Shown here in pieces: positions 12,801-35,371 of a stretch of 64,000 bases of DNA (position 1 is the first letter of the stretch; every line of letters begins with the position of its first letter). This DNA is from Croceicoccus sp. YJ47. Lineage in GTDB: Bacteria > Pseudomonadota > Alphaproteobacteria > Sphingomonadales > Sphingomonadaceae. The notes beneath the pieces were generated by a model. The model searched no databases and had not been told where the DNA came from. It saw nothing but the letters and a program-made list of their open reading frames with translations. Both the position numbers and the translations under genes were made by a program. The DNA lies in assembly GCF_016745095.1 (NCBI RefSeq), contig NZ_CP067087.1, positions 2,716,501-2,780,500 on the forward strand. Direction: 5' to 3'.

Positions 12801-13477
12801 TCGCCCAATGGCACGATGCGGCCGGCGCCATCGCCGAAGATCTGCACCTCGATATGGCGCGCACGCCCGATATACCGTTCGAGGAACACGCCCGCGTCGC
12901 CGAAATTGCCCTGGCCGAGCCGTGCCACCGCGTCGAACCCGTCGCGCACCGCGGCCTCGTCCTCGCAAATGCGCATGCCGATGCCGCCGCCGCCCGCCGT
13001 GGCCTTCACGATCACGGGAAAGCCAATGTCGCGCGCGGCCCCTGCCGCTTCCTCGCGGTCGGTGAGCAGGCCGGTGCCGGGGGCGAGCGGGACGCCGTGG
13101 CGCGCGGCGAGATCGCGGGCGCTGTGCTTCAGGCCGAAGGTGCGGATGTCGTCCGCCGTCGGCCCGATGAAGACGATCCCCGCCTCCTTGCACGCCTCGG
13201 CGAATTCGGTGCTCTCGGCGAGAAAGCCGTAGCCGGGGTGGATAGCGCCCGCGCCGCTTTCGCGCGCGGCATCGAGAATCGCGGGAATGGAAAGATAGCT
13301 TTGCGATGCGGTCGCCGGACCGATGCAGATGGCATGGTCGGCCTGCGAGACATGGAGCGAACCTGCATCCGCCTCGGAATAGACCGCGACCGAGCGCAGG
13401 CCCATGCGGCGGAGCGTGCGGATGATCCGCGTTGCGATGGCACCCCTGTTGGCGACGAGGACCGTATCGAAGCTCAT
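9887..13477 (-). CDS. Biotin-dependent urea/guanidine carboxylase
   Basis: A 1196-residue single-chain enzyme. Residues 1-450 form a biotin carboxylase (VLVANRGAIATRIIRTLR; ATP-grasp glycine loop ATAGGGGIGMRI; EMNTRLQVEHGVTEE). Residues about 470-780 match the KipA-like and about 790-1010 the KipI-like carboxyltransferase parts. A linker follows, then a biotinyl domain ending in ESMKME with biotinylated Lys near residue 1159. Such proteins were long called urea carboxylase, but those beside two DUF1989 proteins have been shown to prefer guanidine, making carboxyguanidine. The DUF1989 pair lies directly upstream here, so guanidine is the likelier substrate, though the active-site specificity was not checked. 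The start is ATG 13477, overlapping the upstream stop; a longer upstream extension (to 13543) lies inside the neighbour gene and was not used. Confidence 0.93.
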   Translation of the reverse strand: MSFDTVLVANRGAIATRIIRTLRRMGLRSVAVYSEADAGSLHVSQADHAICIGPATASQSYLSIPAILDAARESGAGAIHPGYGFLAESTEFAEACKEAGIVFIGPTADDIRTFGLKHSARDLAARHGVPLAPGTGLLTDREEAAGAARDIGFPVIVKATAGGGGIGMRICEDEAAVRDGFDAVARLGQGNFGDAGVFLERYIGRARHIEVQIFGDGAGRIVPLGERDCSLQRRNQKVVEEAPAPCLSDAKRAELIGAAVRLGEAAGYLSAGTVEFLFDAEREEFFFLEMNTRLQVEHGVTEEVMGIDIVEWMIRGAQGDFAFMDGEAPVANGHAIQVRLYAEDPAMDYRPTVGTLTAVEFPDDVRVERWCMAGSEISAWYDPMLAKMIVHADTREAAIGAMQDALDDTRIDGIETNLRWLRDVVRNDDFGRGTVSTKLLETIDYHPASIRVISGGTATTVQDWPGREGYWSVGVPPSGPMDDRSFRLGNLMLGNAEGTAGLEMTASGPTLLFNADARICLMGADFGATLDGEPAPRGTVLDIAAGQTLALGRVSGGGVRGYVLFAGGLDIASYLGSRSTFALGQFGGHAARQLLAGDTLHLERGETAAPCPPTGEPAFGTQWGLRVLYGPHGAPDFFTEADIAQIADARWQVHYNSNRTGVRLVGPKPEWARKDGGEAGLHPSNIHDNPYAIGAVDFTGDMPIILGPDGPSLGGFVCPFTVIAADRWKIGQLSPDDTVRFVPVTVEDAAEADRMPLSHDDTPDAGADVAVLSPILGTIEPQGHRPRTVYRQQGDRNILVEYGDIVLDIELRIRVHALMEELERRALPGVIDIVPGIRSLQLHFDGRSLDQKGALDALIAAEEALGDLEDFTVPSRIVHLPLSWRDPAIEETIEKYMGAVREDAPWCPDNIEFIRRINGLPDADAVEKLIFDASYLVMGLGDVYLGAPVATPVDPRQRLVTTKYNPARTWTPPNVVGIGGAYMCIYGMEGPGGYQLFSRTIQVWNTHRQTDAFVDGKPWLLRFFDQIRFFKVDADELAEWRRDFPNGRRAIEVEHSEFRLADYRAFLAEHAESIAAFEKTRQAAFDTERAEWERSGEFDRVSDLIEDEAGLGAAAPAIEVPDGAELIEAPFGGSVWKMNVSPGDSVTEGQVIAIIESMKMECPFESPASGTIAAIYAEERQALTPGAPMVALRREA

Positions 13478-14109
13478 GCCGAAACGATCATGCGGACGGG
13501 GGTGGGGTTGAACGCGTTGCACGGATTGTTGATCTGCGGACAATTGGACACCACCACGATCACGTCCATTTCGGCACGGAGGTCGACCGTGAGGCCGGGC
13601 GCGGAAATGCCATCCACGATGCCGAGCGAACCGTCATCCTCCACCGGCACATTCATGAAGAAATTGATGTTCGAGACCATGTCGCGCTTCCCCCGCCGTT
13701 CGGTCAGGTTCGCCTCCAGGAAATTCTCGACGCAGGCGTGTTGCGACTTCGTATGATGACCGTATCGCAACGTATTGGATTCGCACGAACATGCGCCGCC
13801 AATGGTATCGTGATATTCGACCGAGGTATCGGCGATCGTCATCATCGGGCGCCCTTCGTTCGAGCGCAGCACGGTGCCCTTGCGCAGGAACAGATTGCCC
13901 TGCGCGGCGAGGGTGTCCTGCGCGCTGTAACGTTCGGCGTCGTCCGCTTCGCTATAGAGCAGGAAATCGACGGCCTGGTTGCCCTCCACATCGACGATGC
14001 GCAGCGTCTGCCCGGCCTTCACATGATGGAGCCAGGGTGCGCGGGCGGCGACGATTTCGTCATGCACGATCGGGCCGGGGAGGCCGGCAACATTCGGGTC
14101 GTTGCTCAT
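13474..14109 (-). CDS. DUF1989 urea-carboxylase-associated protein 2 (carboxyguanidine deiminase subunit)
   Basis: A 211-residue DUF1989 protein. Visible family features are RIVDVEGNQAVDFLLY, the cysteine segment GGACSCESN, SQHACVENF and the C-terminal AEMDVIVVVSNCPQINNPCN. Paired DUF1989 proteins next to a carboxylase and allophanate hydrolase have been shown to form carboxyguanidine deiminase (CgdAB), which turns carboxyguanidine into allophanate. The partner lies 30 bases upstream and the carboxylase overlaps its stop by four bases, so all are probably made from one mRNA. I do not assign A or B. Function is from family knowledge plus context; specificity is inferred. Confidence 0.88.
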   Translation of the reverse strand: MSNDPNVAGLPGPIVHDEIVAARAPWLHHVKAGQTLRIVDVEGNQAVDFLLYSEADDAERYSAQDTLAAQGNLFLRKGTVLRSNEGRPMMTIADTSVEYHDTIGGACSCESNTLRYGHHTKSQHACVENFLEANLTERRGKRDMVSNINFFMNVPVEDDGSLGIVDGISAPGLTVDLRAEMDVIVVVSNCPQINNPCNAFNPTPVRMIVSA

Positions 14110-14139: not shown

Positions 14140-14964
14140 TCAGCGGCGGTAGTAGTCTTCGACGTTCTGAAACGCGCGCAATCCTTCGGGCGTGGCGTTG
14201 CGCACCGGGTCGTCGGCGGGGGCGGGGGCACCGCGCCACGCCGTCGCGCGCAGCGGGGTCACGCTCCATTCCGCGCGCGGGTCGAGCACGTGGGCGCAAT
14301 TGGCCAGCACGACGATCACGTCCATCTCGGCGCGCATCACGATTTCGCGGCCTTTCTCGAACGGGCCGACCTGCGGGGTGATGGTCCCGTCCTTCCCGAT
14401 CCGCGTGCCCTTGAACAGGTTCACGCACGGGTGCACGTCCCGCCGCGTCAGCCCGTGCTTGGCCGAGCCGAGGATGAGCCGGTCGCGCCCGTTGGGGGTG
14501 GGGCCGCTGTTGCGCCCCTCGCCATATTTCGCCGCGTTGGTGGCCGCGTTCGACGTGCCGCAAAACGTGTCATGCGTGCCGGCGCCATCCTCGATCACGC
14601 TCATCAGCACGCGGCCCATGTCGGACAGGAGCAGCCGCCCGGAGGCGAGATAGGCGTTCCACTGCACCTTTACCGTATCGGCAACGTTCAGCCGCTCCGT
14701 CGGCATGTCCGCATTGTAGAGCAGCAGCGAGGCGCAGGCATCGCCGCCAATATCGACCAGCCGCAGCCGCGTCCCGCGTTTCAGCACGCGGGTCGCATAG
14801 CCGCCCGCCGCGATCGTTTCCTCCCACACCAGGTCGCCCGCATCGACGCCATCGGGCAGGTCGTCGGCGACGGGCGGGATGATCGGCATGGCCTCCGCAA
14901 CGGTTCCGGCCATGGCGCGCGCATGGTCGCGCGCGGCCATCGGGTTGGCGAGATTGGTTGTCAT
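14140..14964 (-). CDS. DUF1989 urea-carboxylase-associated protein 1 (carboxyguanidine deiminase subunit)
   Basis: A 274-residue DUF1989 protein, longer than its partner. It shares the family pattern with it: RLRLVDIGGDACASLLLYN, the cysteine segment THDTFCGTSN, DVHPCVNLF and AEMDVIVVLANCAHVLDP. The conserved Cys residues are candidates for zinc binding or catalysis in the deiminase. ATG 14964 overlaps the stop of the NikR-like regulator (ATGA). An upstream in-frame extension to 15132 overlaps that gene entirely and was rejected. Together with the next gene it should convert carboxyguanidine to allophanate. Confidence 0.88.
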   Translation of the reverse strand: MTTNLANPMAARDHARAMAGTVAEAMPIIPPVADDLPDGVDAGDLVWEETIAAGGYATRVLKRGTRLRLVDIGGDACASLLLYNADMPTERLNVADTVKVQWNAYLASGRLLLSDMGRVLMSVIEDGAGTHDTFCGTSNAATNAAKYGEGRNSGPTPNGRDRLILGSAKHGLTRRDVHPCVNLFKGTRIGKDGTITPQVGPFEKGREIVMRAEMDVIVVLANCAHVLDPRAEWSVTPLRATAWRGAPAPADDPVRNATPEGLRAFQNVEDYYRR

Positions 14965-15488
14965 ACCTTCGCGTCCTTGTTTTTTGCCTTGCGTCCTTTC
15001 GCGGCGGGCTCCGGCGCATCGGCGGATGCGGCCCATTCCGGCGTGTCCAGTTCGTGCAGGGGCGGGAGCAGCGCGGTCGTGGTGACGAGCTGAAGCTGAT
15101 TGATGCCGCGAATGCTGCGCAAGGCATCGCACAACTCCTCGAGCCGCATCGCCGGCCCCTGCACGAGCAACACCTCCAGCGACTGGTCATCTTCGAGGAA
15201 GACATGCTGCGAGGAGATGACTTCCTTCAGATAATCCGCCTGCGTTTCGGCGAGTTGTTGCCGCACGCGCCCGCGATTGCCGCGGTAAACAAGGGTGATC
15301 GTGCCCGCGAGCATGTCGTCCGGGCGGAACTGCGCCTCATGCTCCGCGAGGGCGTGGCGGATCAGTTCGGCGATGAGCTGCGAGCGCGACGGCAGCCCGC
15401 GCTCCTCCACCATCATGTCGAGCTGACGGAACAATTCGGCGGGCAGGCTCATGCTCAGACGCGCCAGATTGTTGGAATCGGAACTCAT
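14961..15488 (-). CDS. NikR-like ribbon-helix-helix regulator with altered metal site
   Basis: A 175-residue protein. Residues 8-50 are a ribbon-helix-helix DNA-binding domain (LARLSMSLPAELFRQL, LPSRSQLIAELIRHAL). Residues 58-140 are a NikR-type ACT-like domain (GTITLVYRG, SLEVLLVQGP, LRSIRGINQLQLV). A lysine-rich tail of about 30 residues is extra. An ungapped comparison with E. coli NikR from TQ to LE puts Ala84, His95, Phe97 and Ser103 at the positions of nickel ligands His76, His87, His89 and Cys95, so three of four ligands are missing. It is probably autoregulated: a perfect inverted repeat lies 18-43 bases upstream of the ATG. It is the first gene after the ABC importer and overlaps the next gene by four bases. 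Confidence 0.88.
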   Translation of the reverse strand: MSSDSNNLARLSMSLPAELFRQLDMMVEERGLPSRSQLIAELIRHALAEHEAQFRPDDMLAGTITLVYRGNRGRVRQQLAETQADYLKEVISSQHVFLEDDQSLEVLLVQGPAMRLEELCDALRSIRGINQLQLVTTTALLPPLHELDTPEWAASADAPEPAAKGRKAKNKDAKV

Positions 15489-15500
15489 GCGACCTCTTTC

Positions 15501-16319
15501 TCAATTATTACGTTTATTGTCAATCGTAATACTGCTGGTTTCGTTCACCGGCAGCTCCGCCCGGTCCTCGCTGCGATCTTCCAGCGCCGCCGGATCCTTC
15601 TTCGACAGCGCCAGATCGTAGACCGCCGTGGCGCCGAAACGGTGCGGCGCGTGCGGATCGTGGCGGCGCTTGTCGAGCGTGAGAACCCGCGTGCCGAGCG
15701 TGAACGCTTCCTTCAGGTCATGGGTGACCATGATCACGGTCAGCGCATATTCGTTCCACAGCCGGGTGATGAGCGCATGCATGTCCGCGCGGATACCGGG
15801 GTCGAGCGCGCCGAACGGTTCGTCCAGCAACAGGATCCGCGGCCGTTTGATGAGCGCCTGCGCAATGGCGAGCCGCTGCTGCATCCCGCCCGACATTTCG
15901 GCAGGGTAAAGTTGCATCGCATCCTTCAGCCCCACCGCGTCGAGCATCTCCTCCGCCTGCTCACGCGCGGCCCGCTTGCCCGCACCGAACAGACGGGCGG
16001 CAAAGGGGGCCTGCGCGCATTCGAGGCCGAACATCACATTGCCCAGCGCGGAGAGATGCGCGAACACCGAATAGCGTTGAAACACGACCCCGCGATCCGG
16101 CCCGCATTCGGGGGCAAGCGCCTCTCCATCGAGGAGGATGGAGCCGCGCGTCGGTGCCTCCTGTCCCAGTATCACGCGCAGCAGGCTGCTCTTGCCCGCG
16201 CCCGAGGGGCCGATGATCGACACGAAGGACCGGTGCGCAATGTCGAGCGAGACATTCTCCAGCACGATCTTGTCGCCATATTCGACCCAGATATTGCGGA
16301 GGCTCAGCAGCGCGCTCAA
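15501..16319 (-). CDS. ABC transporter ATP-binding protein (NitT/TauT family)
   Basis: A 272-residue ATPase with Walker A GPSGAGKSS, Q-loop in GVVFQRYSV, signature MSGGMQQRLAIAQAL, Walker B ILLLDEPFGALD and the switch His in VMVTHDLKEAF. It powers import through the permease encoded just upstream. The start chosen is TTG at 16319, which overlaps the permease stop as TTGA; no in-frame ATG fits near the conserved LLSLRNIWVEYG beginning. The last codons carry operator candidate A, so this gene's end doubles as the regulator's promoter region. A C-terminal extension of about 35 residues beyond the usual family end is charged and of unknown use. Confidence 0.9.
   Translation of the reverse strand: MSALLSLRNIWVEYGDKIVLENVSLDIAHRSFVSIIGPSGAGKSSLLRVILGQEAPTRGSILLDGEALAPECGPDRGVVFQRYSVFAHLSALGNVMFGLECAQAPFAARLFGAGKRAAREQAEEMLDAVGLKDAMQLYPAEMSGGMQQRLAIAQALIKRPRILLLDEPFGALDPGIRADMHALITRLWNEYALTVIMVTHDLKEAFTLGTRVLTLDKRRHDPHAPHRFGATAVYDLALSKKDPAALEDRSEDRAELPVNETSSITIDNKRNN
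15506..15531. promoter_or_regulatory. Operator candidate A for the NikR-like regulator
   Basis: TATTACG at 15506-15512 and CGTAATA at 15525-15531 form a perfect 7-base inverted repeat with a 12-base spacer. It lies directly upstream of the NikR-like start (15488) and inside the last codons of the ABC ATPase gene. The same arrangement recurs at 18304, 21664 and 27169, which makes chance unlikely. Half-site symmetry and wide spacing fit NikR-class tetramers. Confidence 0.7.
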
Positions 16320-17131
16320 TGTCCTGCTCCATGGGCCCAGGGGAACATGCGGCGGCTCGCCTGCGTGAGCAGCAGGTCCATCGTCACGGCGAGCAGCGCG
16401 ATCCACGCCACGTAAGGCAGGATGATGTCCATCGACAGATAGCGCCGCACCAGAAAGATGCGATAGCCAAGCCCCACGTCCGCCGCGATCGCCTCTGCGG
16501 AAATCAGGAACACCCATGCCGGGCCGAGCGAAAGCCGCACCGCATGGATGAGCCGGGGCATCGCCTGCGGGAGAGCGACGCGGATCATCACCTGCCAGCT
16601 ATTGGCGCCCAGTGTCTGTGCCTTGATGATCTGTTCGCGGGGCAGGGCGGCGATATGGGCGGCGATGTCGCGGATCATGAACGGCGCGATGCCGATGACG
16701 ATGAGCGCGACCTTCGCCGTTTCGCCCAGCCCGAACGCGATGAACAACACCGGCAGCAGCGCGATCGGCGGAATGACGGCAATGCCCGTCACCAGCGGAC
16801 CGAATGTCGCGCGCACCGTCGGCAATATGCCCAGCACCAGCCCGGCCAGAAGCGCCGAAGCGGTCGAAATCAAAAGCCCGATGGCAAGCCGCGTCAGGCT
16901 GGCGAAGGTATCGTCCCAGAACAGGCGCCCGCCCGAAAGCGGATCGCGTTCGAGGATCAGCGCCGCCATCGCATCGACCATCTGCCCCGGCAGCGGTAGG
17001 ATCTTGTCCGCCGGGTTGATCGCGTGCCGGTCGGCGGCGAGGAGCAGGTAGAGCAGCAACAGCAGCGCGATCGGCAATGCGCCCATCATGATGGCGTGCC
17101 CCCGCCCGAGCCTGCGGTTGACCCATCGCAT
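16316..17131 (-). CDS. ABC transporter permease (NitT/TauT, SsuC-like)
   Basis: A 271-residue inner-membrane protein with about six hydrophobic segments. The BPD_transp_1 coupling loop is visible around residues 165-195 (AQTLGANSWQVMIRVALPQAMPRL reads as the EAA loop). It is typical of permeases for nitrate, taurine, sulfonate or urea-like solutes. It is the second gene of the importer, 30 bases after the binding protein and overlapping the ATPase. In guanidine/urea carboxylase clusters such importers are often annotated as urea transporters. The true substrate is not shown by sequence. Confidence 0.9.
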   Translation of the reverse strand: MRWVNRRLGRGHAIMMGALPIALLLLLYLLLAADRHAINPADKILPLPGQMVDAMAALILERDPLSGGRLFWDDTFASLTRLAIGLLISTASALLAGLVLGILPTVRATFGPLVTGIAVIPPIALLPVLFIAFGLGETAKVALIVIGIAPFMIRDIAAHIAALPREQIIKAQTLGANSWQVMIRVALPQAMPRLIHAVRLSLGPAWVFLISAEAIAADVGLGYRIFLVRRYLSMDIILPYVAWIALLAVTMDLLLTQASRRMFPWAHGAGH

Positions 17132-17161
17132 CAGCGGCGGCCCCCCGTCATGCCCGCGCGA

Positions 17162-18244
17162 TCACAGCGCATTGTCGGCCGCCATCTGCATGAAGCTGTC
17201 GTCGAAACGCAGCGTCACGTTCTGCGCATTGCCGAGCGTCTTGCCGCCGGGGAATGCCATGCCGACCGCATCGGCGGAACGTGCGCCCTGACCGAACAGC
17301 CCCTGGGAAAAGCTGAAATCGCGCACCCGCTGCATCGTCTTGACCAGCGCGGGCCAACGCGCCGCGGCGACGCCGGCCTGCGGCGTGTCGTAGAGGAACG
17401 TCGTGGCGAGCTGTCCCTCGAACACCTCCGGCGTGGTGCCCGCCATCTTGGCCATGGCATCGCGGGCGGCCTTGCCCTCGGCGTCCTGCCGCTTCATCAG
17501 GGCCATCGTCTCGTACCAGATTCCGGCCAGCGCCTTGCCGAGGTTCGGATTGGATTTCAGCGTGGTCGTATCGACCACCAGCAGGTCGAGAATCTCGCCC
17601 GGAATATCGGACGAGCTGAACACCATGTTGGTGCCGGGCGTGTCCTTCATCGTGGAAAGCTGCGGGTTCCAGGCCACGGCGGCCTTGATCTCGGGCGCGG
17701 TGAAGGCACCGGCGATGTCCGCATCCGCCGTGTTGATCGTGTTGACCGCCGTCATCGGCAGGCCCGCCGTTTCCAGCCCGCGCGCCAGCAGGTAATGCGA
17801 CACCGACAATTCGACGAGATGCACGTCCTTGCCCCGGATCGCGCCGAGCCGGTCATTACCCTTGAGCAATATGCCGTCGTTGCCGTTCGAATAATCGCCG
17901 ATGATGACGGCGGTGGTATCCTTGCCCCCCGCGGCGGGAATGGTGAGCGCGTCCATGTTCGCGACCGTCACGCCGTCGAGCTTGCCGGCGGTGTACTGGT
18001 TCACCGATTCCACGTAATCGTTCACCTGCACGAATTCGATGTCGAGGCCGTATTTGTCGGCCCATTTGTCGACGATCCCGGCCTGCTGTGCATAGGGCCA
18101 AGGCATCCACCCGGCATAGATCGACCAGCCAATGTCGAAATCGGTGCGCGGACCGGCGGGCTCCTCCGGCGACGAACACGAGGCCAGCACGAGGGCACCG
18201 GCAATTGCGACGATGTTCCCCGCGGTACGGATACGGTTGATCAT
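17162..18244 (-). CDS. ABC substrate-binding lipoprotein ('putative urea' NMT1-like)
   Basis: A 360-residue NMT1/SsuA-type periplasmic binding protein. The signal peptide ends in the lipobox LASC (Cys near residue 23), so it should be anchored in a membrane. The mature part begins FDIGWSIYAGWMPWPYAQQAG and contains KYGLDIEFVQVNDYVESVNQY, typical of family members in urea/guanidine carboxylase loci. The start ATG 18244 has an AAGGAG ribosome site 8 bases upstream; the longer upstream frame has none. It is the first gene of the minus-strand nitrogen operon, and operator candidate B lies 59-86 bases upstream. The ligand is inferred to be a small guanidino or urea compound. Confidence 0.9.
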   Translation of the reverse strand: MINRIRTAGNIVAIAGALVLASCSSPEEPAGPRTDFDIGWSIYAGWMPWPYAQQAGIVDKWADKYGLDIEFVQVNDYVESVNQYTAGKLDGVTVANMDALTIPAAGGKDTTAVIIGDYSNGNDGILLKGNDRLGAIRGKDVHLVELSVSHYLLARGLETAGLPMTAVNTINTADADIAGAFTAPEIKAAVAWNPQLSTMKDTPGTNMVFSSSDIPGEILDLLVVDTTTLKSNPNLGKALAGIWYETMALMKRQDAEGKAARDAMAKMAGTTPEVFEGQLATTFLYDTPQAGVAAARWPALVKTMQRVRDFSFSQGLFGQGARSADAVGMAFPGGKTLGNAQNVTLRFDDSFMQMAADNAL

Positions 18245-18302
18245 GATTCGTCTCCTTTCGCGCTTGCAGCATTGCGCGATCGCGCGGGCTTGTCCATGCC
18301 AA

Positions 18303-18330
18303 ATATTACTGTTGATCGTATTCGTAATAT
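18303..18330. promoter_or_regulatory. Operator candidate B between divergent ABC and MBL operons
   Basis: TATTACT (18304-18310) and CGTAATA (18323-18329) with a 12-base spacer; outer A/T bases extend the symmetry. It lies 59 bases upstream of the binding-protein start (minus strand) and 124 bases upstream of the MBL protein start (plus strand), so it could control both operons. It has one mismatch from site A. Confidence 0.65.
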
Positions 18331-18453
18331 CGGTATAGTCCTCGTCACATGCGGCGCTTTGGCAAGAGAGCGCCGCGTGCGATGTCCGGGGAGGGGGCGT
18401 CTTGAAACGGCATGCGTTCAACGCCGCCCGCGCGGCGGTTCGAAAGGATGACG

Positions 18454-19542
18454 ATGCCCCAGACCGATACGGCAAAGCCGATCACGACGACCATCGTGGA
18501 ATCGACCGCGACACGCGCCTATCCCAATGGCAATCCCGATCTTCCCTACAACCGCGCGGCGGTGCGCAACACCGACAGCGCCGTCCCGCGCCCGCCCCGC
18601 GCGCCGGTCATGCACGATTACGCTTGCGACGGGCCGGCCCCGGGACAGATCGCGTTTCGCTGGATCCACGGCTCCAACATTGCGGCGAAGAATCAGGATC
18701 CGCGCGTTCATGTCCTGCAATATAACGAGGACAGCTTCATCCTGCGGCAGAATGTCTGCGTCCATTGGGAGGCGCCGTTCACCTATCTGCTGTTCGGCAA
18801 TGCCGGCGCGCTGCTCATCGATACCGGGGCGACCGCCAACGCCGCGCATTATCCGCTGCGCAAGACCGTCGATGCCGTGATCGAACGCTGGGCGCAGGCG
18901 CGTGGGCGGCGGCGGGTGCCGCTCACCATCGCGCTGACCTCTGGTGAGGATGTCGCGCAGAACCAGGGCCTGAAACAATTCGCCGGGCGCGCCGATACGA
19001 CGATCGTCCCGCCGCCCTTCGCCGCGATGAAGGGGCATTACGGACTCGCCGAAAACTGGCCCGGCGGGTCGGCGGCCATCGACCTCGGCGACCGGGTCAT
19101 CACCGTCCTGCCGACGCCCGGCGCGCATCGCGACGGGGTCAGCTTTTACGATCCCTATACCGATTTCCTGTTTACCGGCGACCTCCTCTATCCCGGCAAG
19201 ATCAACATCGGCAACGATCGCGATTTTGTCGCCTCGCTCGAACGTCTGTCCGCGTTTGCCGGCAGTCAGCCGGTGAAATGGGTGATGGGCGGCCATGTCG
19301 AGATGATGTTCGTGCCGGGCCGCTATTACCCGCGCTTCGCCACGTTCAAGCCGTATGAGCGGGTTTTGCAGATGGAGCCCGCGCTCATTGACGAGGCGCT
19401 GACCCACGCGCGGGCGGTGCAGGGGCGGGACACGATGCTGATCCGGCCCGATTTCGTGCTGATGAACGGGGTCAGCCCGGATCAGCGCACGTCCAACTGG
19501 CCCGAGGGCGTGCCGAAGATCAATCCGCCGCACCCGTTCTGA
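18454..19542 (+). CDS. Metallo-beta-lactamase-fold protein lacking the HxHxDH motif
   Basis: A 362-residue protein without a signal peptide. It is clearly related to the next gene product: both share YNE-x3-ILRQN, EAPF, LxFGN and LL(I/L)D followed by G. At the place of the zinc-binding SHLHADH of its neighbour it has TSGEDVAQN (162-170), so the first metal site is absent, while later MBL elements persist (TPGAHRDG, FTGDLLYPGK, MGGHVEMM). It may be a non-catalytic partner of its paralogue, or bind metal differently. The start at 18454 has GAAAGG 7-8 bases upstream; the ATG two codons earlier is too close to that site. It heads the plus-strand operon, 30 bases before the next gene. Confidence 0.8.
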   Translation: MPQTDTAKPITTTIVESTATRAYPNGNPDLPYNRAAVRNTDSAVPRPPRAPVMHDYACDGPAPGQIAFRWIHGSNIAAKNQDPRVHVLQYNEDSFILRQNVCVHWEAPFTYLLFGNAGALLIDTGATANAAHYPLRKTVDAVIERWAQARGRRRVPLTIALTSGEDVAQNQGLKQFAGRADTTIVPPPFAAMKGHYGLAENWPGGSAAIDLGDRVITVLPTPGAHRDGVSFYDPYTDFLFTGDLLYPGKINIGNDRDFVASLERLSAFAGSQPVKWVMGGHVEMMFVPGRYYPRFATFKPYERVLQMEPALIDEALTHARAVQGRDTMLIRPDFVLMNGVSPDQRTSNWPEGVPKINPPHPF

Positions 19543-19572
19543 ACGCCATTGCCCGCACGAAAGGATCCGCCG

Positions 19573-20574
19573 ATGGATCGTCGCACCTTCCTTGCCTATA
19601 ACGCCGCCGCGGCCGTGCCGCTCACCATTGCCGGAAAGGCGTATGGCGCGAGTGTTTCGCATGACGGCCCGCCGGTGAATTTCACCGTCGACGGCCCCGC
19701 ACCGGGGGCATTTCCCGACCGCTGGATCTGCGGATCGCCGTCCGCGATGGACAACACCGATCCCCCGATTCAGGTACACTGGTATAACGAGCACACCGCG
19801 ATCCTGCGGCAGAACAAGGCCTATAGCTACGAAGCGCCGTTCGCCCCGCTCTATTTCGGGAACGACAGGGTGCTGCTGCTCGACGAGGGCTACGTCCAGC
19901 TTCGCAACGATTGCGATTACCGCGCCGTCGTCGACGATTGCATCGAACAATGGTGCCGCCGCAACCGCCGCAATCCGGCCGCGATGGAACTGCTCGTCGC
20001 GTTCAGCCATCTGCACGCCGACCATTACGCCGCGGTCAATCAGTTCGCCGACCGCCCGAATACGCGATACATGGGCCTCACCCACGAAGAAATGCTGGGT
20101 TTCTGGGGGATGACGAATTTTCCCGAAGAGCGCGTGACGCTCGACCTCGGCGGGCGGGAGATCCTTATCTGGGGCTCGCCCGGCCACGTGATTTCGGAAT
20201 TCGCCTATTACGACAGCTATACGCAGATCCTCTATACCGGCGACATGTTCTATCGCGGGCGCTGCTACATCAGCTTCTGGGAGCCGTGGTTCGACAGCAT
20301 GAAGCGGCTGATCGATTTTTGCGACACGCACCCGGTCGCGCATGTGATGGGCTGCCATGTCGAAATGAGCGAGACGGGCGAGGATTACCCCTACGGTCTC
20401 ACCTATCAACCGGATGAGGCGCCGGTGCAGATGACCGTCGCACAGCTTCGCGAAACCTACGAATATGCGAAGGGGATTACCGAGCCCGGCATCTATTTCA
20501 CCGGCACGGTGTACCTGTGCAACCAGTCGCGCAGCACGACGACCATCGACCGCTACCCCTATCGCTACGAATGA
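19573..20574 (+). CDS. Metallo-beta-lactamase-fold hydrolase, Tat-type leader
   Basis: A 333-residue protein with an N-terminus MDRRTFLAYNAAAAVPLTIAG, a twin-arginine (RRTFL) leader suggesting folded export to the periplasm. The metal motif SHLHADH is at 145-151 (His146, His148, Asp150, His151). Further ligands are probably in SPGHVIS, YTGDMFYRG and MGCHVEMSE. It is the catalytically complete partner of the upstream paralogue. The start ATG 19573 has AAAGG 9 bases upstream; the earlier ATG (19549) was rejected because it would bury the Tat leader. The substrate is unknown. Its place in the island suggests a step on the imported compound before the inner-membrane transporter, which is speculative. 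Confidence 0.82.
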   Translation: MDRRTFLAYNAAAAVPLTIAGKAYGASVSHDGPPVNFTVDGPAPGAFPDRWICGSPSAMDNTDPPIQVHWYNEHTAILRQNKAYSYEAPFAPLYFGNDRVLLLDEGYVQLRNDCDYRAVVDDCIEQWCRRNRRNPAAMELLVAFSHLHADHYAAVNQFADRPNTRYMGLTHEEMLGFWGMTNFPEERVTLDLGGREILIWGSPGHVISEFAYYDSYTQILYTGDMFYRGRCYISFWEPWFDSMKRLIDFCDTHPVAHVMGCHVEMSETGEDYPYGLTYQPDEAPVQMTVAQLRETYEYAKGITEPGIYFTGTVYLCNQSRSTTTIDRYPYRYE

Positions 20575-20604
20575 TGCGCGCTGGCGCGAAGACAGGAGAT
20601 TTGC

Positions 20605-21540
20605 ATGAAACGCACCATGGTGACCGCCGCCCTGTTCGCCGCGACGACAGGATGCGTAACGACAGGCGCGCCCGGCCCGGACGCCGCACCAGCTTTGGTC
20701 GAACGGGAATTGAGCGTGCCCGGCTTTGCCGATTTCCTCGCCGTCGATGGCGATACGGTCTGGGTCACGAATGACGGGCGGGTCGAGCAATGGTCGCGCA
20801 CGGAAAAGCTTGCCAGCGTGACCGTGCCGCGCCCGTGCGGGACGATGGCGGTGGCGGCGGGATCGCTCTGGGTCGCGAATTGCCCCGATGCCAATCTCTA
20901 CCGCATCGACACCGCGACCGCGACGGTGGAGCAGATGATCGCGACCGGCATCGCCAATCCCAAGGGCGAAACGAATGTCGTTGCCGGCGCAGGATCCGTC
21001 TGGGTGCCGAGCGCGGCGAGCGGCGAAATCGCGCGGCTCGATCCCGAAACGGGCGCGATCGTCGCACGCATTCCGGTCAATCCCGGCACGTTCTTCCTCG
21101 CCTACGGGCATGACGCGCTCTGGGCGGTGAGCAGCGATGCCCGCACGTTGCAGAAGATCGACCCCGACAGCAATGCGGTCGTCGGCACCGTCGCGCTCGG
21201 GCTGCAGCCCGGCTTCCTCGCCGCGGGGGAGGGGGCCGTCTGGGTGCAGGAACAGGGCGACGGCACGGTCGCGCGCGTCGACCCCGCAACGCTCGCCATC
21301 ACCGACAGGGTGAAGGTCGGCGAGACGCTGGCCTATGGCGATATCGACGTGGGCGGCGGGCTGGTCTGGCTCCGCACGACGGAGGACCAGGTGTTCGCCG
21401 TCATCGATCCGGTGACCATGAACGTGACTGCTCGCCTCGGCGAACCGGCGGGCAGCGGGGCGATCCGCTACACCCCCGATGGCGTATGGACCAGCGCCCA
21501 CGACAATCAGACGCTTTCCTGGTGGAGCAGGCCGGACTGA
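20605..21540 (+). CDS. Vgb/YncE-like beta-propeller lipoprotein
   Basis: A 311-residue protein with a short signal peptide ending TTGC (a weak lipobox with Cys at 17). At least six repeats of about 42 residues follow, each with a VWV(T/A/P) strand and an (A/L)xID(P/T) strand, for example DTVWVTN, SLWVANCP, SVWVPSA, ALWAVSS, AVWVQEQ and LVWLRTT. This is the pattern of streptogramin-lyase/YncE-type propellers. Catalytic residues cannot be assigned; it could bind a ligand or partner in the periplasm. A good ribosome site (AGGAG) precedes ATG 20605. It is the third gene of the MBL operon, with a 30-base gap. Confidence 0.82.
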   Translation: MKRTMVTAALFAATTGCVTTGAPGPDAAPALVERELSVPGFADFLAVDGDTVWVTNDGRVEQWSRTEKLASVTVPRPCGTMAVAAGSLWVANCPDANLYRIDTATATVEQMIATGIANPKGETNVVAGAGSVWVPSAASGEIARLDPETGAIVARIPVNPGTFFLAYGHDALWAVSSDARTLQKIDPDSNAVVGTVALGLQPGFLAAGEGAVWVQEQGDGTVARVDPATLAITDRVKVGETLAYGDIDVGGGLVWLRTTEDQVFAVIDPVTMNVTARLGEPAGSGAIRYTPDGVWTSAHDNQTLSWWSRPD

Positions 21541-21663
21541 ACCCCCGGAAATTCCGGTTCGCGGCGCGATGCACTTTGCAATTCTGTCGGGTAACCCCCG
21601 GTTTTGCATCGGTTAATGTCGCGCCCGGTCATCGAGGCATTCGTTACCGTGCATTTCACAAAT

Positions 21664-21689
21664 TAATACGCTTGACGCATTTCGTAATA
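21664..21689. promoter_or_regulatory. Operator candidate C upstream of the TonB receptor
   Basis: TAATACG (21664-21670) and CGTAATA (21683-21689) with the same 12-base spacer as sites A and B; one mismatch in the left arm. The region is locally AT-rich, in contrast to flanking DNA. It would bring the small ORF and the TonB receptor under the NikR-like regulator. Confidence 0.6.
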
Positions 21690-21749
21690 TCTGTAGCGTA
21701 TCGAGAGACGCCGCAAGAGCGTCTGACCGAGAGCGAGAGGATCCACCCG

Positions 21750-21767
21750 GCCGGGCATATGCCCGGC
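21750..21767. repeat. 18-base perfect palindrome in the TonB leader
   Basis: GCCGGGCAT followed by ATGCCCGGC, with no spacer. It lies 60 bases after operator C and 8 bases before the ribosome site of the small ORF. As RNA the arms could form a 7-bp stem with a 4-base loop in the 5' leader; as DNA it could be a dimeric protein site. No T tract follows, so it is not a classical terminator. Confidence 0.5.
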
Positions 21768-21785
21768 TTGATACGGAGGTTTCTC

Positions 21786-21992
21786 GTGCATCTGCCCGAT
21801 CAGAAAAATTCCGCATCCCTTGCCCATCCCCGCGCCGCCGGGCTGTTCGCGCCCGCCGCGCGGCAGGCGGACCGGCGCGGCCATCGTCCGCCGTCTGCGT
21901 CCGCTCCACCGCGGTCTGCCGCCGGGCTGATGCGGGCGGCGCGAACGGCGGCACGTGCCCTGTTCCGGGCGCGCGTTGCGGCACGCGGATGA
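21786..21992 (+). CDS. Possible small basic protein (68 aa) ahead of the TonB receptor
   Basis: A GTG-started ORF with GGAGG six bases upstream, encoding 68 residues rich in Ala and Arg (begins with HLPDQKNSASLAH, ends in ALFRARVAARG). It has no signal peptide or known domain. The composition is close to what random GC-rich frames give, so the ribosome site and its place between operator C and the receptor are the only support. It could be a leader peptide or a false ORF. Confidence 0.3.
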   Translation: MHLPDQKNSASLAHPRAAGLFAPAARQADRRGHRPPSASAPPRSAAGLMRAARTAARALFRARVAARG

Positions 21993-22095
21993 CGACCGGC
22001 TGCCCTGCCATGACGGAACGCGGGGCGGTCCCTTTCTACACCAATCATCGACGCGCGATCGCGCGCGGGATCTTACACCTGACAGGGGGAAAACC

Positions 22096-24528
22096 ATGAC
22101 CAAACGCCAGACCTTCAGATCCGCCCTTCTTTCGGCGACCGTGCTCGCCATGGCGGGCCACGCCGCCCACGCCTCGGCACAGGATGCAAACGCGGGCACG
22201 ATGATCAACGAACCGGCGGGCGATACCTATGCCGATACGATCGACGGCGCGATCGTCGTGACCGGCACCCGGCGCAGCACCACGATTCAGGACACGCCGA
22301 TCAATATTTCCGCCATCGATGCAGAGGAGCTCGCCAGCAAGCAGATCGAGGATGTCCGCGACATCGCCGATTTCACGCCCGGCATGACCATTTCGGACAC
22401 CGGGCCGGGATCGACGGGTTCGATCGTGCTGCGCGGGCTGAATGCGTCGGGGGTCGACGATTTCGGTGCGGGCTATGACGATTCGCTGGGCATTTATCTC
22501 GGCGAAGTGCCGCTGTTCTACGATTTCAAGCTGATCGATATCGACCGCGTCGAAACCCTGCTCGGCCCGCAGGGCACGTTGTACGGTCTGGGCACGCTGG
22601 CCGGTGCGATCCGCTATATCCCCAACCGCCCCGATGTCACCGGATTCGAGGGTGAGTTCCACGGCCGCGCCTATGCCAAGAGCCACAGCGATGATTTTGG
22701 CTACCAGGCCGACGGCATGGTCAACATTCCCATCGTGCGCGATCACGTCGCGTTTCGTTCGGCGACCGGTTACTATTTCGATCCCGGTTTCATCGATTAT
22801 CCGCTGCTGGTGCAGGAACCGGGCGTGTCATTGCCGCAGCCGGACGGGCCCAATGGCGTCACGCAGGAAGGCTTTGCCGAAAACCTGCGCCGTGCAGAAG
22901 ATCTGAACTTCGAGCGGACGTTCACCACGCGCAACCAGCTTCTGTTCCAGACGACTGAGGATCTGAAACTCATCCTCACCTACGCCTATCAGAAGACGGA
23001 TACCGACGGCGCACAGGCGAACAGCTTTGGCGTGCTGGGCACCGGGCGCTATGAAAACGCGAGCCGCTTTATCGAGCCGATCTCCCGCAATGCGCATCTG
23101 GCGAGTGCGGAGGTCAATGCGAATATCGGCGATTTCGTCGATATCGTCGCGACCGGCGCCTATACCGAGGTGAATTTCGAAGGGCAGGCCGATGTGACCG
23201 ATCTGCTGCTCGATCTCGACTACGATTACGAGCTCTTTCCCGCGTTCGCCGGCTACACCGAATCGATCAACGAGCGAAAGCAGAAGAACGCCGAGATCCG
23301 CTTCGTCTCCAGCCACGGCGGCCCCTTGAGCTGGGTGCTCGGCGGGTTCTTCAACGAGAACAAGTATCAGAGCGATTATGCCGAACGCGTTCCCAACCAC
23401 CCCTGGGTCGGGCCGGACAATCCCGAGGCGCTCGAATATGTGAGCTACATCACCTCCGAGGTTACGGAAAAGGCGGTCTTCGGCGAAGCGACGCTCGAAA
23501 TCACGCCGGAATTTCAGGTTACGGCCGGCACGCGATATTTCGACTACGAGTCGGAGATTTCGGGTGCGGCCGCGCTCCCGCTGCTCGGCGATCCGCTCAG
23601 CCCTTACGACCTGCTTACCAATGGCGGGCAGGCCGGGCAGGATGGCTGGGTCTGGAAATTCAACAGCAGCTACGAATTCACGCCCGACCTCATGGTCTAC
23701 GGCACGTATAGCAAGGGCTATCGCATTGGCGGGCCGAACCGCGTCGCGCCGTGCCCCGCCGATATTCAGCCCGGACAGCAGATCATCTGCGCGCTTCCGG
23801 ACGAGCTGCAATACGGCCCGGACACGACGAAGAACCTGGAACTGGGCGTTCGCACGCAATTGTTCGACCGGATGCTGTCGCTCAATTTGAACGTGTTCCA
23901 GATCAAGTGGGATGGCATCCAGGTGGATTCCGCCACGCTCTATGGCGCGACCGGCATCACGGTGAACGGCGGCAAAGCCAAGTCCGAAGGGTTCGAAGCC
24001 TCGTTTCAGCTTCGCCCGGTGCGCGGCCTGTCGATCCAGGGGAATTACTCCTACACCGATGCGCGGCTGACCGAGGATATTCCCGGCATCCTGACCATTC
24101 GCGAGACGCCGGGCGATTATTCGAACCGTTTCGTACAGCTCGATGCGATGGACGGCGACCGGCTGCCCGGATCGGCGAAGAATGCGGGCAGCATCGGCGC
24201 CACCTACGTACAGCCTTTGGTGAGCGGCGATCTCATCGCGAACTGGACCACGGTGTATCGCGGCGACGTGGTGTCGCGGCTGGGATGGGAGCGGGCCTAT
24301 GGCGAGCTGATCCCGAGCTATGTCACGCATCGCGCCCGGCTCACCTACGATACCGACAGGTTCAGCATCGGCCTGTTCGCGAACAACATCTTCGATGAAT
24401 ATGCCATCGTGTCGGTCGCGAACGACCGGTCGCGCATCGGTATCAACGATGGCGTCGCCGTGCGCTATTACCGCCAGGTCGTGCTCAATCCCCGGACCGT
24501 CGGGATCGAGGGCCGGGTGAAGTTCTGA
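22096..24528 (+). CDS. TonB-dependent outer-membrane receptor
   Basis: An 810-residue receptor with a signal peptide (residues 1-31, ending in HASAQ). A TonB-box-like DGAIVVTGTRR starts near 52 and is followed by a plug domain (DTPINISAIDAEELASKQI, LRGLNASG, VETLLGPQGTLYG). A 22-strand barrel ends in the typical C-terminal Phe (GRVKF). Energy comes from TonB-ExbBD at the inner membrane. The start at 22096 has AGGGGGAA upstream; the longer frame has no signal peptide at its end. The operator upstream suggests it serves uptake of the compound handled by the ABC importer and carboxylase. Helicobacter NikR also controls TonB receptors. The substrate is unknown. Confidence 0.92.
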   Translation: MTKRQTFRSALLSATVLAMAGHAAHASAQDANAGTMINEPAGDTYADTIDGAIVVTGTRRSTTIQDTPINISAIDAEELASKQIEDVRDIADFTPGMTISDTGPGSTGSIVLRGLNASGVDDFGAGYDDSLGIYLGEVPLFYDFKLIDIDRVETLLGPQGTLYGLGTLAGAIRYIPNRPDVTGFEGEFHGRAYAKSHSDDFGYQADGMVNIPIVRDHVAFRSATGYYFDPGFIDYPLLVQEPGVSLPQPDGPNGVTQEGFAENLRRAEDLNFERTFTTRNQLLFQTTEDLKLILTYAYQKTDTDGAQANSFGVLGTGRYENASRFIEPISRNAHLASAEVNANIGDFVDIVATGAYTEVNFEGQADVTDLLLDLDYDYELFPAFAGYTESINERKQKNAEIRFVSSHGGPLSWVLGGFFNENKYQSDYAERVPNHPWVGPDNPEALEYVSYITSEVTEKAVFGEATLEITPEFQVTAGTRYFDYESEISGAAALPLLGDPLSPYDLLTNGGQAGQDGWVWKFNSSYEFTPDLMVYGTYSKGYRIGGPNRVAPCPADIQPGQQIICALPDELQYGPDTTKNLELGVRTQLFDRMLSLNLNVFQIKWDGIQVDSATLYGATGITVNGGKAKSEGFEASFQLRPVRGLSIQGNYSYTDARLTEDIPGILTIRETPGDYSNRFVQLDAMDGDRLPGSAKNAGSIGATYVQPLVSGDLIANWTTVYRGDVVSRLGWERAYGELIPSYVTHRARLTYDTDRFSIGLFANNIFDEYAIVSVANDRSRIGINDGVAVRYYRQVVLNPRTVGIEGRVKF

Positions 24529-24535
24529 TCCGGAT

Positions 24536-24569
24536 GGGCGGGGCGGCGCGTCGGGCGCCGGTCCCGCCC
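24536..24569. terminator. Hairpin between convergent TonB receptor and sulfotransferase genes
   Basis: GGGCGGG (24536-24542) pairs with CCCGCCC (24563-24569), and inside it GGCGC (24545-24549) pairs with GCGCC (24555-24559) around a 5-base loop. It fills the 42-base gap between convergent stops. There is no T tract, but a strong two-part stem at such a junction is likely a two-way transcription stop. Confidence 0.5.
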
Positions 24570-24570
24570 G

Positions 24571-26133
24571 TTAACCGGTTTCGATCCCCTGGTCCTCGAA
24601 CCAGCGGCGGACCGGTTCCAGGGCGGCGGCATGGGTTCGCCATTTGCCCATGCCGTCGCTATTGATCGGGCGGCGGACCTGCGCCGCGCTGGGCGTCGCG
24701 ACGGCGGCCTTGTTCTCGTGAAAGGACAGGCACGCCGCGTCCCACTCCAGCCCGCAAAACGACAGCAGCTCCCGCGTGCTGGCTTCCTGCGCCGTCACGA
24801 GCGCCTCATACGACAATTGCAGGATACGGCCGGGAAAGACGCGATCCCAAAACCGCATGAGCCGGTCGAACCGCGCATAATATCGCGCCGTCGCCATCAG
24901 GTCGTAGGAATAGGCGTAATAGGGCGAGCGGCTGGCGAACAGATTCTTGAAATTGCTCCACACCGTGTCCATCGGATTGCGGCGGAGGCACACGATCGGT
25001 GCGTCGGGGAAACTGCGCGCGATATGCCCGATATACAGGAAATTGGCGGGCAGCTTGTCGACGAAACGCCGCGTGTCGTCCATCCGGTGATGCTGCGCCT
25101 GTGCCATGTAACGGCTGGCGAGTTGCGCGGGGTCGATATGCCGTCTCGCGCGGATGGTGTCGGGGTCGATGATGACGCGCGACGCCGTCTGGCTCAACCG
25201 TTTTACGCCGAGCGGCATCGCCTGTAACTCCCCGGCGGAGACGACGTCGGGATGCGACGACAGGATCCGGTCGACCAAAGTCGTGCCGGTCCGAGGCATG
25301 CCCACGACGAAGAGGGGGGCGCGGCTCCCCATCGGCTGTCCCGCACCATGGCCGCCGCCATCGGCAAAGCATTCTTCGATCGCGTCGAAGATCGCGGCGT
25401 CCTGCGCGAAATCGTAACGGATGTTGCGCGCGTGCCGGGCATTGGCATCGGCGAGATGGCGAAACGCTTCGACCTCGCCGAGATCCTCCAGTTCCTTTGC
25501 CAAAGCGTAGCGGATGCGCAGGGCGTCGTCCTCGCTCCGCGCCGCGCCCAATGCGATTTTCAGCCGATCGACATGGTTGTCGCTGCGCGTCTGCCGCGAC
25601 AGAATGGCGAGCGCGTAATGCGTGCGGCCATTTTCAGGATCGATTTCGAGGACGTGCTCGTAATGGACGCGCGCATCCTCGACCGCGCCTGTAAAGCCGA
25701 GCGCGGCGGCCAGGTTGTAGCGATAGTCGAGATTGTCGGGTTCGGCCTCCACCGCGGCGGTGAAGGGCGCGATGGCGCGCGCATGATCGCTCAGCCTGAC
25801 CAGCACGCAACCGATCGTGTCGAAGGTGCGCGCATCGCGTGGGTTGAGGTCAAGCGCGCGCCGGGCCATGGCCGCGGCATCGCCATCGCGGCGCATCAGG
25901 ATAAGCAGGCGGGCAAGCTGCGCGCAATGTTCGGGATCGTCACCGCGTGCGATGGCGGATTCGAGCAGGGGCACCGCCTTCGCGATCCGGCCTGCTTCTG
26001 CTGCGGCAATCCCGAGCAGGAAATAGCCGTCCGCATCGTCCGGCCTGTCGGCGATCAACGCATCGGCGGCGCGCGACGCCGCCGCAAGATCGCCCCGCGC
26101 AAGCGCGTTCCGCGCCTCCGACGCCAGAGTCAC
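24571..26133 (-). CDS. TPR-repeat sulfotransferase family protein
   Basis: A 520-residue protein. Residues 1-235 are tetratricopeptide repeats (ADGYFLLGIAAAEAGR, DARTFDTIGCVLVRL, RYNLAAALGFTGAVEDA, RTHYALAILSRQ). Residues 255-500 are a sulfotransferase domain with the PAPS 5'-phosphosulfate loop VVGMPRTGTTLVDRIL, and IVCLRRNPMDTVWSN near the 3'-phosphate site. Sphingomonad genomes often carry such a gene beside a TonB receptor, but the acceptor is unknown. It is transcribed towards the receptor, after UrcA and a secreted unknown with gaps of 79 and 110 bases, perhaps as one unit. Confidence 0.9.
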   Translation of the reverse strand: MTLASEARNALARGDLAAASRAADALIADRPDDADGYFLLGIAAAEAGRIAKAVPLLESAIARGDDPEHCAQLARLLILMRRDGDAAAMARRALDLNPRDARTFDTIGCVLVRLSDHARAIAPFTAAVEAEPDNLDYRYNLAAALGFTGAVEDARVHYEHVLEIDPENGRTHYALAILSRQTRSDNHVDRLKIALGAARSEDDALRIRYALAKELEDLGEVEAFRHLADANARHARNIRYDFAQDAAIFDAIEECFADGGGHGAGQPMGSRAPLFVVGMPRTGTTLVDRILSSHPDVVSAGELQAMPLGVKRLSQTASRVIIDPDTIRARRHIDPAQLASRYMAQAQHHRMDDTRRFVDKLPANFLYIGHIARSFPDAPIVCLRRNPMDTVWSNFKNLFASRSPYYAYSYDLMATARYYARFDRLMRFWDRVFPGRILQLSYEALVTAQEASTRELLSFCGLEWDAACLSFHENKAAVATPSAAQVRRPINSDGMGKWRTHAAALEPVRRWFEDQGIETG

Positions 26134-26212
26134 GAGGCGCGCCGCCCTTGCCTGCGACTGATCAATGCCACGCCGCGCATCGGGATCATGCGCCCCGACG
26201 CGCGGCCATGGA

Positions 26213-26539
26213 TCAGTCGCGCAGAGCCAGAACGGTGGACGTCGCGCGTGCGGCCATGCGCTGCTCGATCTGATTGCGAATGTCCTGCTTTACCGCGACC
26301 CGGCATTCCTCGGCCTGTGCGTGAAGCTTCAGGTGCACACGGTCCAGCCCCTCTCCGCAAACGGCATTGGCGGCCGCGTCCATGCGGATCGCGAGGCTGC
26401 GCTGTCCCTCTACGGTCGACAGGTTGATCCCGTCGAGCTGCAGGGTCGCGCTTTCCTGAACGAACGGATCGGCCATTGCCGTCGATGCGGTACCGGCCAG
26501 CGCGCACGCGGCCATGACCATAAGGCCTTTTTTCATCAT
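26213..26539 (-). CDS. UrcA family secreted small protein
   Basis: A 108-residue protein with a signal peptide (ending TAMAD) and two Cys in the mature part (AVCGEG and AEECRVAVKQDI), spaced as in UrcA family proteins of Sphingomonadales. The family function is unknown. A second ATG follows the first directly; ACAGGAGAG-like bases lie upstream (AGGAG). It lies between the secreted unknown and the sulfotransferase on the same strand. Confidence 0.82.
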   Translation of the reverse strand: MMKKGLMVMAACALAGTASTAMADPFVQESATLQLDGINLSTVEGQRSLAIRMDAAANAVCGEGLDRVHLKLHAQAEECRVAVKQDIRNQIEQRMAARATSTVLALRD

Positions 26540-26649
26540 ACTCTCCTGCGAACATCAAAACGCCGCTCTTCGGCGGATGGCAGGAATATAGGGTGCCGCG
26601 CCGCCATTGGCAACACGCAGCCCGCGGCCATGAAACGCAAGGGGCATGG

Positions 26650-27075
26650 TTATCGTACGCGAACCCTCAACGTGTCGAGGTCGGTCGTGTCGCCGAGCAC
26701 GCCGATGGGCAGGTCGACGATGGCCACGTCCTTCGTGCCGCGATCCGGGGCGTGGAGCGATACCGCGATGGTGCGCGCGGGCCCGTCCGACCATTCGCGC
26801 AGCGTGTCGAGCGACAGACGCAGTTTCCATCCCTTGCCGCCCTCGACGAACACGGGGCGCCCGTTCACCTTCACGATTGCGGCAGGATCGTCGCGGCGCC
26901 CGGACACCATGAGGCAGCTCGCCTCACCGCAGCGGACGAGCCGCGTGACCGGATCGTCATCGCCGAAAGCCTGCGTCGGCGCGGCGCCGGCCGCGGCCAT
27001 CGCGAACAGCCCGGCGGCGATGCGGCCATGCCGGGGCGCGATGCGGAGGAGGGGGCGTGACAGGATGCGATCCAT
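26650..27075 (-). CDS. Secreted protein of unknown function
   Basis: A 141-residue protein with a signal peptide (about residues 1-37, ending in TQAFG) and two Cys close together (VRCGEASCLMV). The rest is a beta-rich domain with VKVNGRPVFVEGGKGWKLRLS and TLRVRVR at the end. I do not recognise the family. A clear ribosome site (AAGGAG) lies 8 bases before the ATG. Operator candidate D lies about 95 bases upstream, which makes it a possible member of the NikR-like regulon and the head of the UrcA/sulfotransferase unit. Confidence 0.7.
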   Translation of the reverse strand: MDRILSRPLLRIAPRHGRIAAGLFAMAAAGAAPTQAFGDDDPVTRLVRCGEASCLMVSGRRDDPAAIVKVNGRPVFVEGGKGWKLRLSLDTLREWSDGPARTIAVSLHAPDRGTKDVAIVDLPIGVLGDTTDLDTLRVRVR

Positions 27076-27168
27076 GAAGATATCTCCTTCCGCCGCGCCG
27101 TATCGGGCTGCGGCGGCGATTGAATCTCTCCCACGCGCTTGTCGTTCTTATGGGCGACAGCTTACCTG

Positions 27169-27194
27169 TATTACGACCCTCGTCAATGGTATTA
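27169..27194. promoter_or_regulatory. Operator candidate D upstream of the secreted unknown
   Basis: TATTACG (27169-27175) is a perfect left arm. The right arm GGTATTA (27188-27194) matches CGTAATA at five of seven bases, again after exactly 12 bases. It lies between the pirin stop (27226) and the secreted protein start (27075). It is the weakest of the four sites. Confidence 0.5.
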
Positions 27195-35224: not shown

Positions 35225-35371
35225 ACCATCAGGGCAGGGTTTTTCAACCCCCCACTTTTGCGGAGAATGGCCATCGTAAAACACGCCTTCCCAAACGGCT
35301 CGCGACCCTGCAACAAGGCAACGGACGGGATCGGACGCGGGTTCCGGTATGCGGGAGAGGGGAACGAAAGC

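Follow-up and report, generated by a model that had tools for sequence, protein, structure and literature searches.

A NikR-like regulator and its candidate operators at a guanidine carboxylase locus of Croceicoccus sp. YJ47

The pathway made up of an importer, guanidine carboxylase, carboxyguanidine deiminase, and allophanate hydrolase is already known, and its control by guanidine riboswitches is common but not universal. Published operators of NikR are GTATGA half-sites in E. coli (PMC4486848), GTGTTAC-N13/14-GTAACAC in delta-proteobacteria (PMC545781), and TRTTA-N15-TAWTA in H. pylori (PMC5385501). We analyzed a stretch of 64,000 nucleotides from Croceicoccus sp. YJ47 (contig NZ_CP067087.1, positions 2,716,501 to 2,780,500; hereafter the window, whose own coordinates are used below), where a NikR-like gene stands with genes of this pathway and with four inverted repeats of the form TATTACG-N12-CGTAATA. 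An initial annotation had listed these repeats and had proposed them as the regulon sites of the NikR-like protein; a window scan placed all four where it had claimed, with 0, 1, 1, and 2 mismatches. Judged from sequence comparison, they are very probably regulon sites bound by that protein. The regulator and its candidate operators are:

14961..15488, minus strand: regulator, ribbon-helix-helix plus NikR_C (ACT) domain, with three of the four nickel ligands replaced
15506..15531, no strand assigned: operator 1, without mismatch, upstream of the regulator operon, containing TTGACA
18304..18329, no strand assigned: operator 2, between the divergent importer and metallo-beta-lactamase (MBL) operons, with TTGATC-N16-TATAGT towards MBL
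21664..21689, no strand assigned: operator 3, before the TonB receptor, containing TTGACG-N16-TAGCGT
27169..27194, no strand assigned: operator 4, before the secreted-protein/sulfotransferase genes, with TTGACG-N16-TAAGCT; the weakest member

The locus is like the NikR systems of E. coli, P. horikoshii, and H. pylori in domain order, in fold, and in the pairing of half-sites at a distance of about two turns of DNA. Pfam assigned the regulator NikR_C (1.3e-20) and RHH_1 (7.5e-6) domains, a search against PDB returned NikR (6.9e-25), and the predicted model of the regulator fits NikR chains best. The protein differs from NikR, however, in its metal site: the canonical ligands His, His, His, and Cys read A, H, F, and S, so that NikR H78, H91, and C97 are replaced by A, F, and S, and the five NCBIfam NikR models that match it all score under their cut-offs (e.g., 97.7 vs 105). 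Ligand positions 97 and 103 (F and S in the window protein) were substituted, and His95 was kept, in 100/100 regulator sequences, whereas 29/29 other NikR-family proteins examined had all four ligands intact. A protein still responsive to metal through a noncanonical site, which would tie guanidine use to metal status, could be argued from the NikR fold and family and from the invariant His95, but the uniform loss of two ligand positions makes it improbable. It is further disfavored by the genome, where a search limited to NikR_C and urease alpha among nickel-related genes revealed neither a second NikR_C protein nor a urease alpha subunit, and by the window pathway genes, which by their families are not nickel enzymes. 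The operators here also mark guanidine genes, not the nickel genes of the NikR systems. Nickel itself as the signal is very unlikely, and the locus suggests that a metal-sensor fold has moved away from metals.

At ≤3 mismatches the window contained five matches to the repeat (mean 0.36, maximum 3 in 100 dinucleotide shuffles), of which the fifth (35256-35281, 3 mismatches) looks like chance. The 7+7 pattern at ≤2 mismatches occurs at 5 places in the 3.35-Mb genome, 4 of them the window operators. Across relatives the seventh half-site base is weak, which leaves the core TATTAC-N14-GTAATA; at ≤1 mismatch this core is found at 4 places in the genome, all of them window operators, and the genome scan for equally good matches elsewhere, which the initial annotation had proposed, yielded none at this stringency. 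One place at 1955199 (2 mismatches to the 7+7 pattern) was kept out of the regulon; by eye it is like a motif recurring in relatives, several of which are regulator-free.

We sought relatives of the regulator in species genomes and, among 273 stretches that encode one, used the best 80 loci. By title, 79 are from sphingomonads, the nearest being Croceicoccus, and 1 is labelled Candidatus Poribacteria. The regulator and neighbours of this last contig (L061) match those of a Croceicoccus locus (L060) at near-equal identities, and it is probably a mis-binned sphingomonad contig. The 7+7 motif was perfect at 19 sites in the 80 loci and occurred at 103 sites at ≤1 and 199 sites at ≤2 mismatches, against 0-4 sites at ≤2 mismatches for 20 shuffled half-sites, 1 for the reversed pattern, and 3 for a direct repeat; at least one site was seen in every locus. 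When spacers of 4-22 bases were tried, 12 alone stood out (199 sites; the next was 17 at spacer 5), with 10 sites counted as inside ABC_S, probably because the query open reading frame (ORF) starts too early. In 61/80 loci a regulator copy has a site (≤3 mismatches) no more than 140 bases upstream of its matched start. In another set of 18 loci (L035-L052), whose organisms are partly shared with the 80-locus set, 16 have a site at ≤3 mismatches directly before the regulator, and where gene order is altered (L049, L050, and L083) sites precede the relocated genes. The regulon first proposed is thus supported, with its sites conserved in related loci, as is the likeness to wide-spaced NikR-type half-sites; the H. 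pylori and delta-proteobacterial operators have a similar layout. Nineteen of the 80 loci (L062, L068-L071, L073, L079, L080, L082, L087, L089, L090, L097-L099, L101, L112, L116, and L130) encode the regulator twice, upstream of the importer and upstream of UAAP1, and most of these copies have sites of their own.

The association extends to a second family of the same class, where 20/119 genomes encode the regulator. In the 17 loci analyzed (16 of the 20 genomes plus L177; G899, G905, and G986 were left out), a site stands directly upstream of the regulator in 16, and the 308 kb examined contain 22 perfect core sites, where none of the 18 shuffles listed has any, and 28 sites at ≤2 core mismatches against 0-7. 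A more distant regulator clade (40-44% identical) often keeps the operator: it lies between regulator and importer in L176, L214, and L215, a perfect copy precedes the importer in L178, where a glutamine synthetase gene is nearby, and TATGAC...GTCATA precedes a creatininase-family gene in L179. An apparent covariation of a TGTTAC operator with Ser12->Gly (G131) was dropped; site 4 of L037 and L216, whose regulators have Ser12, also reads TGTTAC.

Several observations limit, or weigh against, reading the repeats as a regulon of the NikR-like protein. At looser thresholds the genome holds no excess of matches: 37 places for the 7+7 pattern at ≤3 mismatches vs 77 for the reversed control, and 17 vs 43 for the core at ≤2 mismatches; because the reversed control exceeds the observed count, the 13 further genome places with 2 core mismatches are background. 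The 7+7 pattern at ≤1 mismatch occurs somewhere in 44/148 relatives' genomes, many of them regulator-free, and the reversed control also matches, so the pattern alone is no proof outside regulator loci. The 140 bases before the regulator copy lack a site (≤3 mismatches) in 19/80 loci, where sites lie elsewhere in the locus; L046, L048, and L212 have none directly before the regulator, the site of L212 preceding a receptor-like gene instead; and no operator was found at ≤2 core mismatches in L213 of the distant clade. Operator 4 was not found at ≤2 core mismatches in 2/7 same-genus relatives with the operon (G006 and G011). In the regulator's own promoter, no -10 element stands out over 67 distinct sites, and the regulator model is a monomer of middling confidence. 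The promoter-like half-sites and the lack of excess among loose genome matches might suggest that an AT-rich pattern has matched by chance, but the shuffled, reversed, and direct-repeat controls and the other spacers gave almost nothing in relatives' loci, and we reject this explanation, to which we assign a vanishingly small probability.

The genes presumably governed by operator 1, together with the neighbouring importer, are those of guanidine use:

8124..9890, minus strand: allophanate hydrolase (start chosen by eye in ORF 8124-10073)
9887..13477, minus strand: guanidine carboxylase (TIGR02712) with the D719 and D964 signature (start by eye in ORF 9887-13543)
13474..14109, minus strand: UAAP2 (DUF1989), likely a carboxyguanidine deiminase subunit
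14140..14964, minus strand: UAAP1 (DUF1989), likely a carboxyguanidine deiminase subunit (start by eye in ORF 14140-15132)
15501..16517, minus strand: ABC importer ATPase (coordinates are of the longest ORF, inside which the true start lies)
16316..17131, minus strand: ABC importer permease
17162..18244, minus strand: ABC importer substrate-binding protein (TIGR03427; start by eye)

UAAP1, UAAP2, the carboxylase, the allophanate hydrolase, and the TIGR03427 binding protein all score above their NCBIfam cut-offs, and a solved-structure search gave no match for the binding protein. UAAP1 and UAAP2 together presumably form the carboxyguanidine deiminase; the former was seen in 80/80 and the latter in 79/80 loci. 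By inspection, the likely starts of UAAP1, the carboxylase, and the hydrolase overlap the preceding stops by 4 bases, because of which the regulator, UAAP1, UAAP2, carboxylase, and hydrolase genes look like one operon. The criterion set out in PMC11410670 is Asp at position 1584 of the K. lactis enzyme and, to assign guanidine over urea, Asp at position 1330. The window carboxylase has D964 and D719 at these two positions, D719 being kept in 79/79, 18/18, and 15/15 readable loci of three partly overlapping sets. Given this signature and the membership of the binding protein in TIGR03427, the pathway very probably acts on guanidine, as predicted from its residues; urea as the carboxylase substrate was rejected because Asp occupies the position that decides between the two.

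The regulator and the pathway also occur together. In 148 relatives' genomes, the regulator was found in 18 and UAAP2 above cut-off in 21, including all 18 (18/18 regulator genomes vs 3/130 others; Fisher's exact test, P = 2e-20, uncorrected for relatedness). Under stricter filters, a guanidine-I riboswitch reached its cut-off in 0/148 of these genomes and E 0.001 in 2/148, and a known riboswitch in the window was rejected, as Rfam gave 0 matches there at gathering scores. The locus shares with riboswitch-run pathways a carboxylase with both Asp residues, UAAP1/UAAP2, allophanate hydrolase, and the TIGR03427 protein, but differs in having a protein regulator, operators, and added envelope genes and in lacking an Rfam match. 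The 3 guanidine operons without the regulator (G041, G042, and G073) have the same enzymes and importer but carry beside the importer a LysR gene, sitting where others carry the NikR-like gene (assigned by Pfam in L148 and L150 and by similarity only in L149); no operator was found in these 3 genomes' LysR-linked operons at ≤1 core mismatch. That the sites belong to another regulator, with the NikR-like gene a bystander, is highly improbable: the sites track the regulator gene over two families and the distant clade, are absent where LysR replaces it, and have the geometry of NikR operators. In two alphaproteobacterial families, the operator and the regulator accompany the guanidine carboxylase operon. 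That the regulon is real is well supported by this comparative evidence, and a NikR-family regulator has apparently been turned to the assimilation of guanidine as a nitrogen source.

The remaining operators also stand before the genes grouped here as the envelope part:

18412..19542, plus strand: MBL-fold protein 1 (HxHxDH not visible by eye, TSGEDV in its place)
19549..20574, plus strand: MBL-fold protein 2 (HLHADH motif present by eye)
20605..21540, plus strand: beta-propeller-like secreted protein
22096..24528, plus strand: TonB-dependent receptor (start by eye in ORF 21955-24528)
24571..26133, minus strand: TPR-sulfotransferase
26213..26539, minus strand: small ORF, probably secreted, earlier labelled UrcA; no Pfam family
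26650..27075, minus strand: small ORF, probably secreted; no Pfam family

Counts over the 80 loci were 57 for the receptor, 56 for the propeller, 44 for MBL2, 38 for MBL1, and 37 for the sulfotransferase; these are lower bounds, as no locus reaches beyond 10 kb from the regulator, and among the matches to the receptor and MBL proteins some are of 35-50% identity. The least secure of the four is operator 4: at ≤1 core mismatch the site is kept in 5/7 same-genus relatives with the operon (G002, G005, G007, G009, and G012); in other genera, no such site was found ahead of the small ORF in G027 or G045, while G081 and G034 have one nearby. The UrcA label found no confirmation, as no Pfam family was assigned at E 0.001. 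A solved-structure search with MBL protein 2 gave two weak matches; the motif is seen in protein 2 only, and one member of the pair may be active and the other inactive. An ORF of ~330 residues, FA_hydroxylase by Pfam (L047), lies between operator 3 and the receptor in L037, L041, L043, and L047 and is missing from the window, where the 406-base stretch 21690-22095 in its place may be a gene remnant or a long leader. One possibility is that the envelope genes serve uptake and cleavage of a guanidine-bearing compound.

The operators overlap putative promoter elements. Operator 1 lies within the final codons of the ABC ATPase ORF (ORF end 15501), 17 bases from the regulator ATG; operator 2 is intergenic provided that the ATG at 18244 (59 bases off), and not the TTG of the longest ORF, is the start of the binding protein; operator 3 is 406 bases upstream of the most likely receptor ATG at 22096; and operator 4 is 93 bases upstream of the small ORF 26650-27075. 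By inspection, operators 2-4 contain TTGA with a TAnnnT hexamer (TATAGT, TAGCGT, and TAAGCT) 16 bases behind the -35 hexamer. Relatives' sites, assigned to receptor or MBL genes by distance, give the consensus TTGacg-N16-Taccgt before the receptor and TTGc.a-N16-TAt.aT before MBL, and TTGAC is present in 57/67 distinct sites of the regulator's own promoter. An operator placed on the -35 element and spacer is as expected for a repressor, which from sequence the regulator probably is. Some NikR proteins also activate, as reported for H. pylori, and the unclear -10 of the regulator's own promoter would suit an activator; this role is nevertheless unlikely, given that the operator covers the -35 and spacer in 3/4 window sites and in the relatives' consensus.

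Under repression, a NikR-like tetramer would bind the operator with one ribbon-helix-helix dimer per half-site, and the bound regulator would cover the -35 element and so block its own operon, as an autorepressor, together with the importer operon and the envelope genes. The DNA may then be released when guanidine or a close derivative enters the ACT-domain pocket that once held nickel and has since been remodelled. We put forward such an inducer because the genes for uptake and for breakdown share their control, the protein has lost its metal site, and binding of small ligands is common among ACT domains. As a whole, a guanidine-released NikR-like autorepressor acting on promoter operators is a likely explanation of the locus; for the ligand itself, we lean towards a guanidine-type compound. 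The regulon may instead respond to another signal, such as a larger guanidino compound entering through the TonB receptor, an intermediate, e.g., allophanate, or nitrogen status. The operators common to the TonB receptor, the MBL pair, and the secreted proteins speak for this, as does the distant clade, which adjoins glutamine synthetase or a creatininase-family gene, but the receptor and MBL1 are seen in far fewer of the 80 loci than UAAP1 and UAAP2, and we regard it as possible, if rather doubtful. Returning to guanidine, we propose tentatively that the regulator may be a guanidine-binding transcription factor whose nickel pocket has become a guanidinium pocket, with His, His, and Cys lost and Phe and Ser standing beside the conserved His95, Glu99, and Asp101. 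Such a factor would drive an envelope-to-cytoplasm scavenging regulon in two alphaproteobacterial families and would be part of a broader NikR-like clade that has retained a single operator type and governs guanidine and perhaps creatinine-type nitrogen sources.

The initial annotation had suggested an envelope-to-cytoplasm system of uptake and degradation not yet described as a unit. Its cytoplasmic core is the known guanidine carboxylase pathway; what is new is control by a protein where others use riboswitches, together with the linked envelope genes. Among open-licence PMC papers, neither titles nor abstracts that deal with this regulator or with its operator were found, and the accessible parts of PMC12508155 and PMC2667541 contain nothing on such a regulator. 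Against the background given in a 2025 review (PMC12186494), the locus provides a concrete candidate guanidine regulator with its operators and target genes. It also suggests that guanidine use involves a TonB receptor and hydrolase-like proteins, and it could yield a genetically encoded guanidine sensor. If the proposal is true, the NikR-like protein would be a protein counterpart of the guanidine riboswitches.

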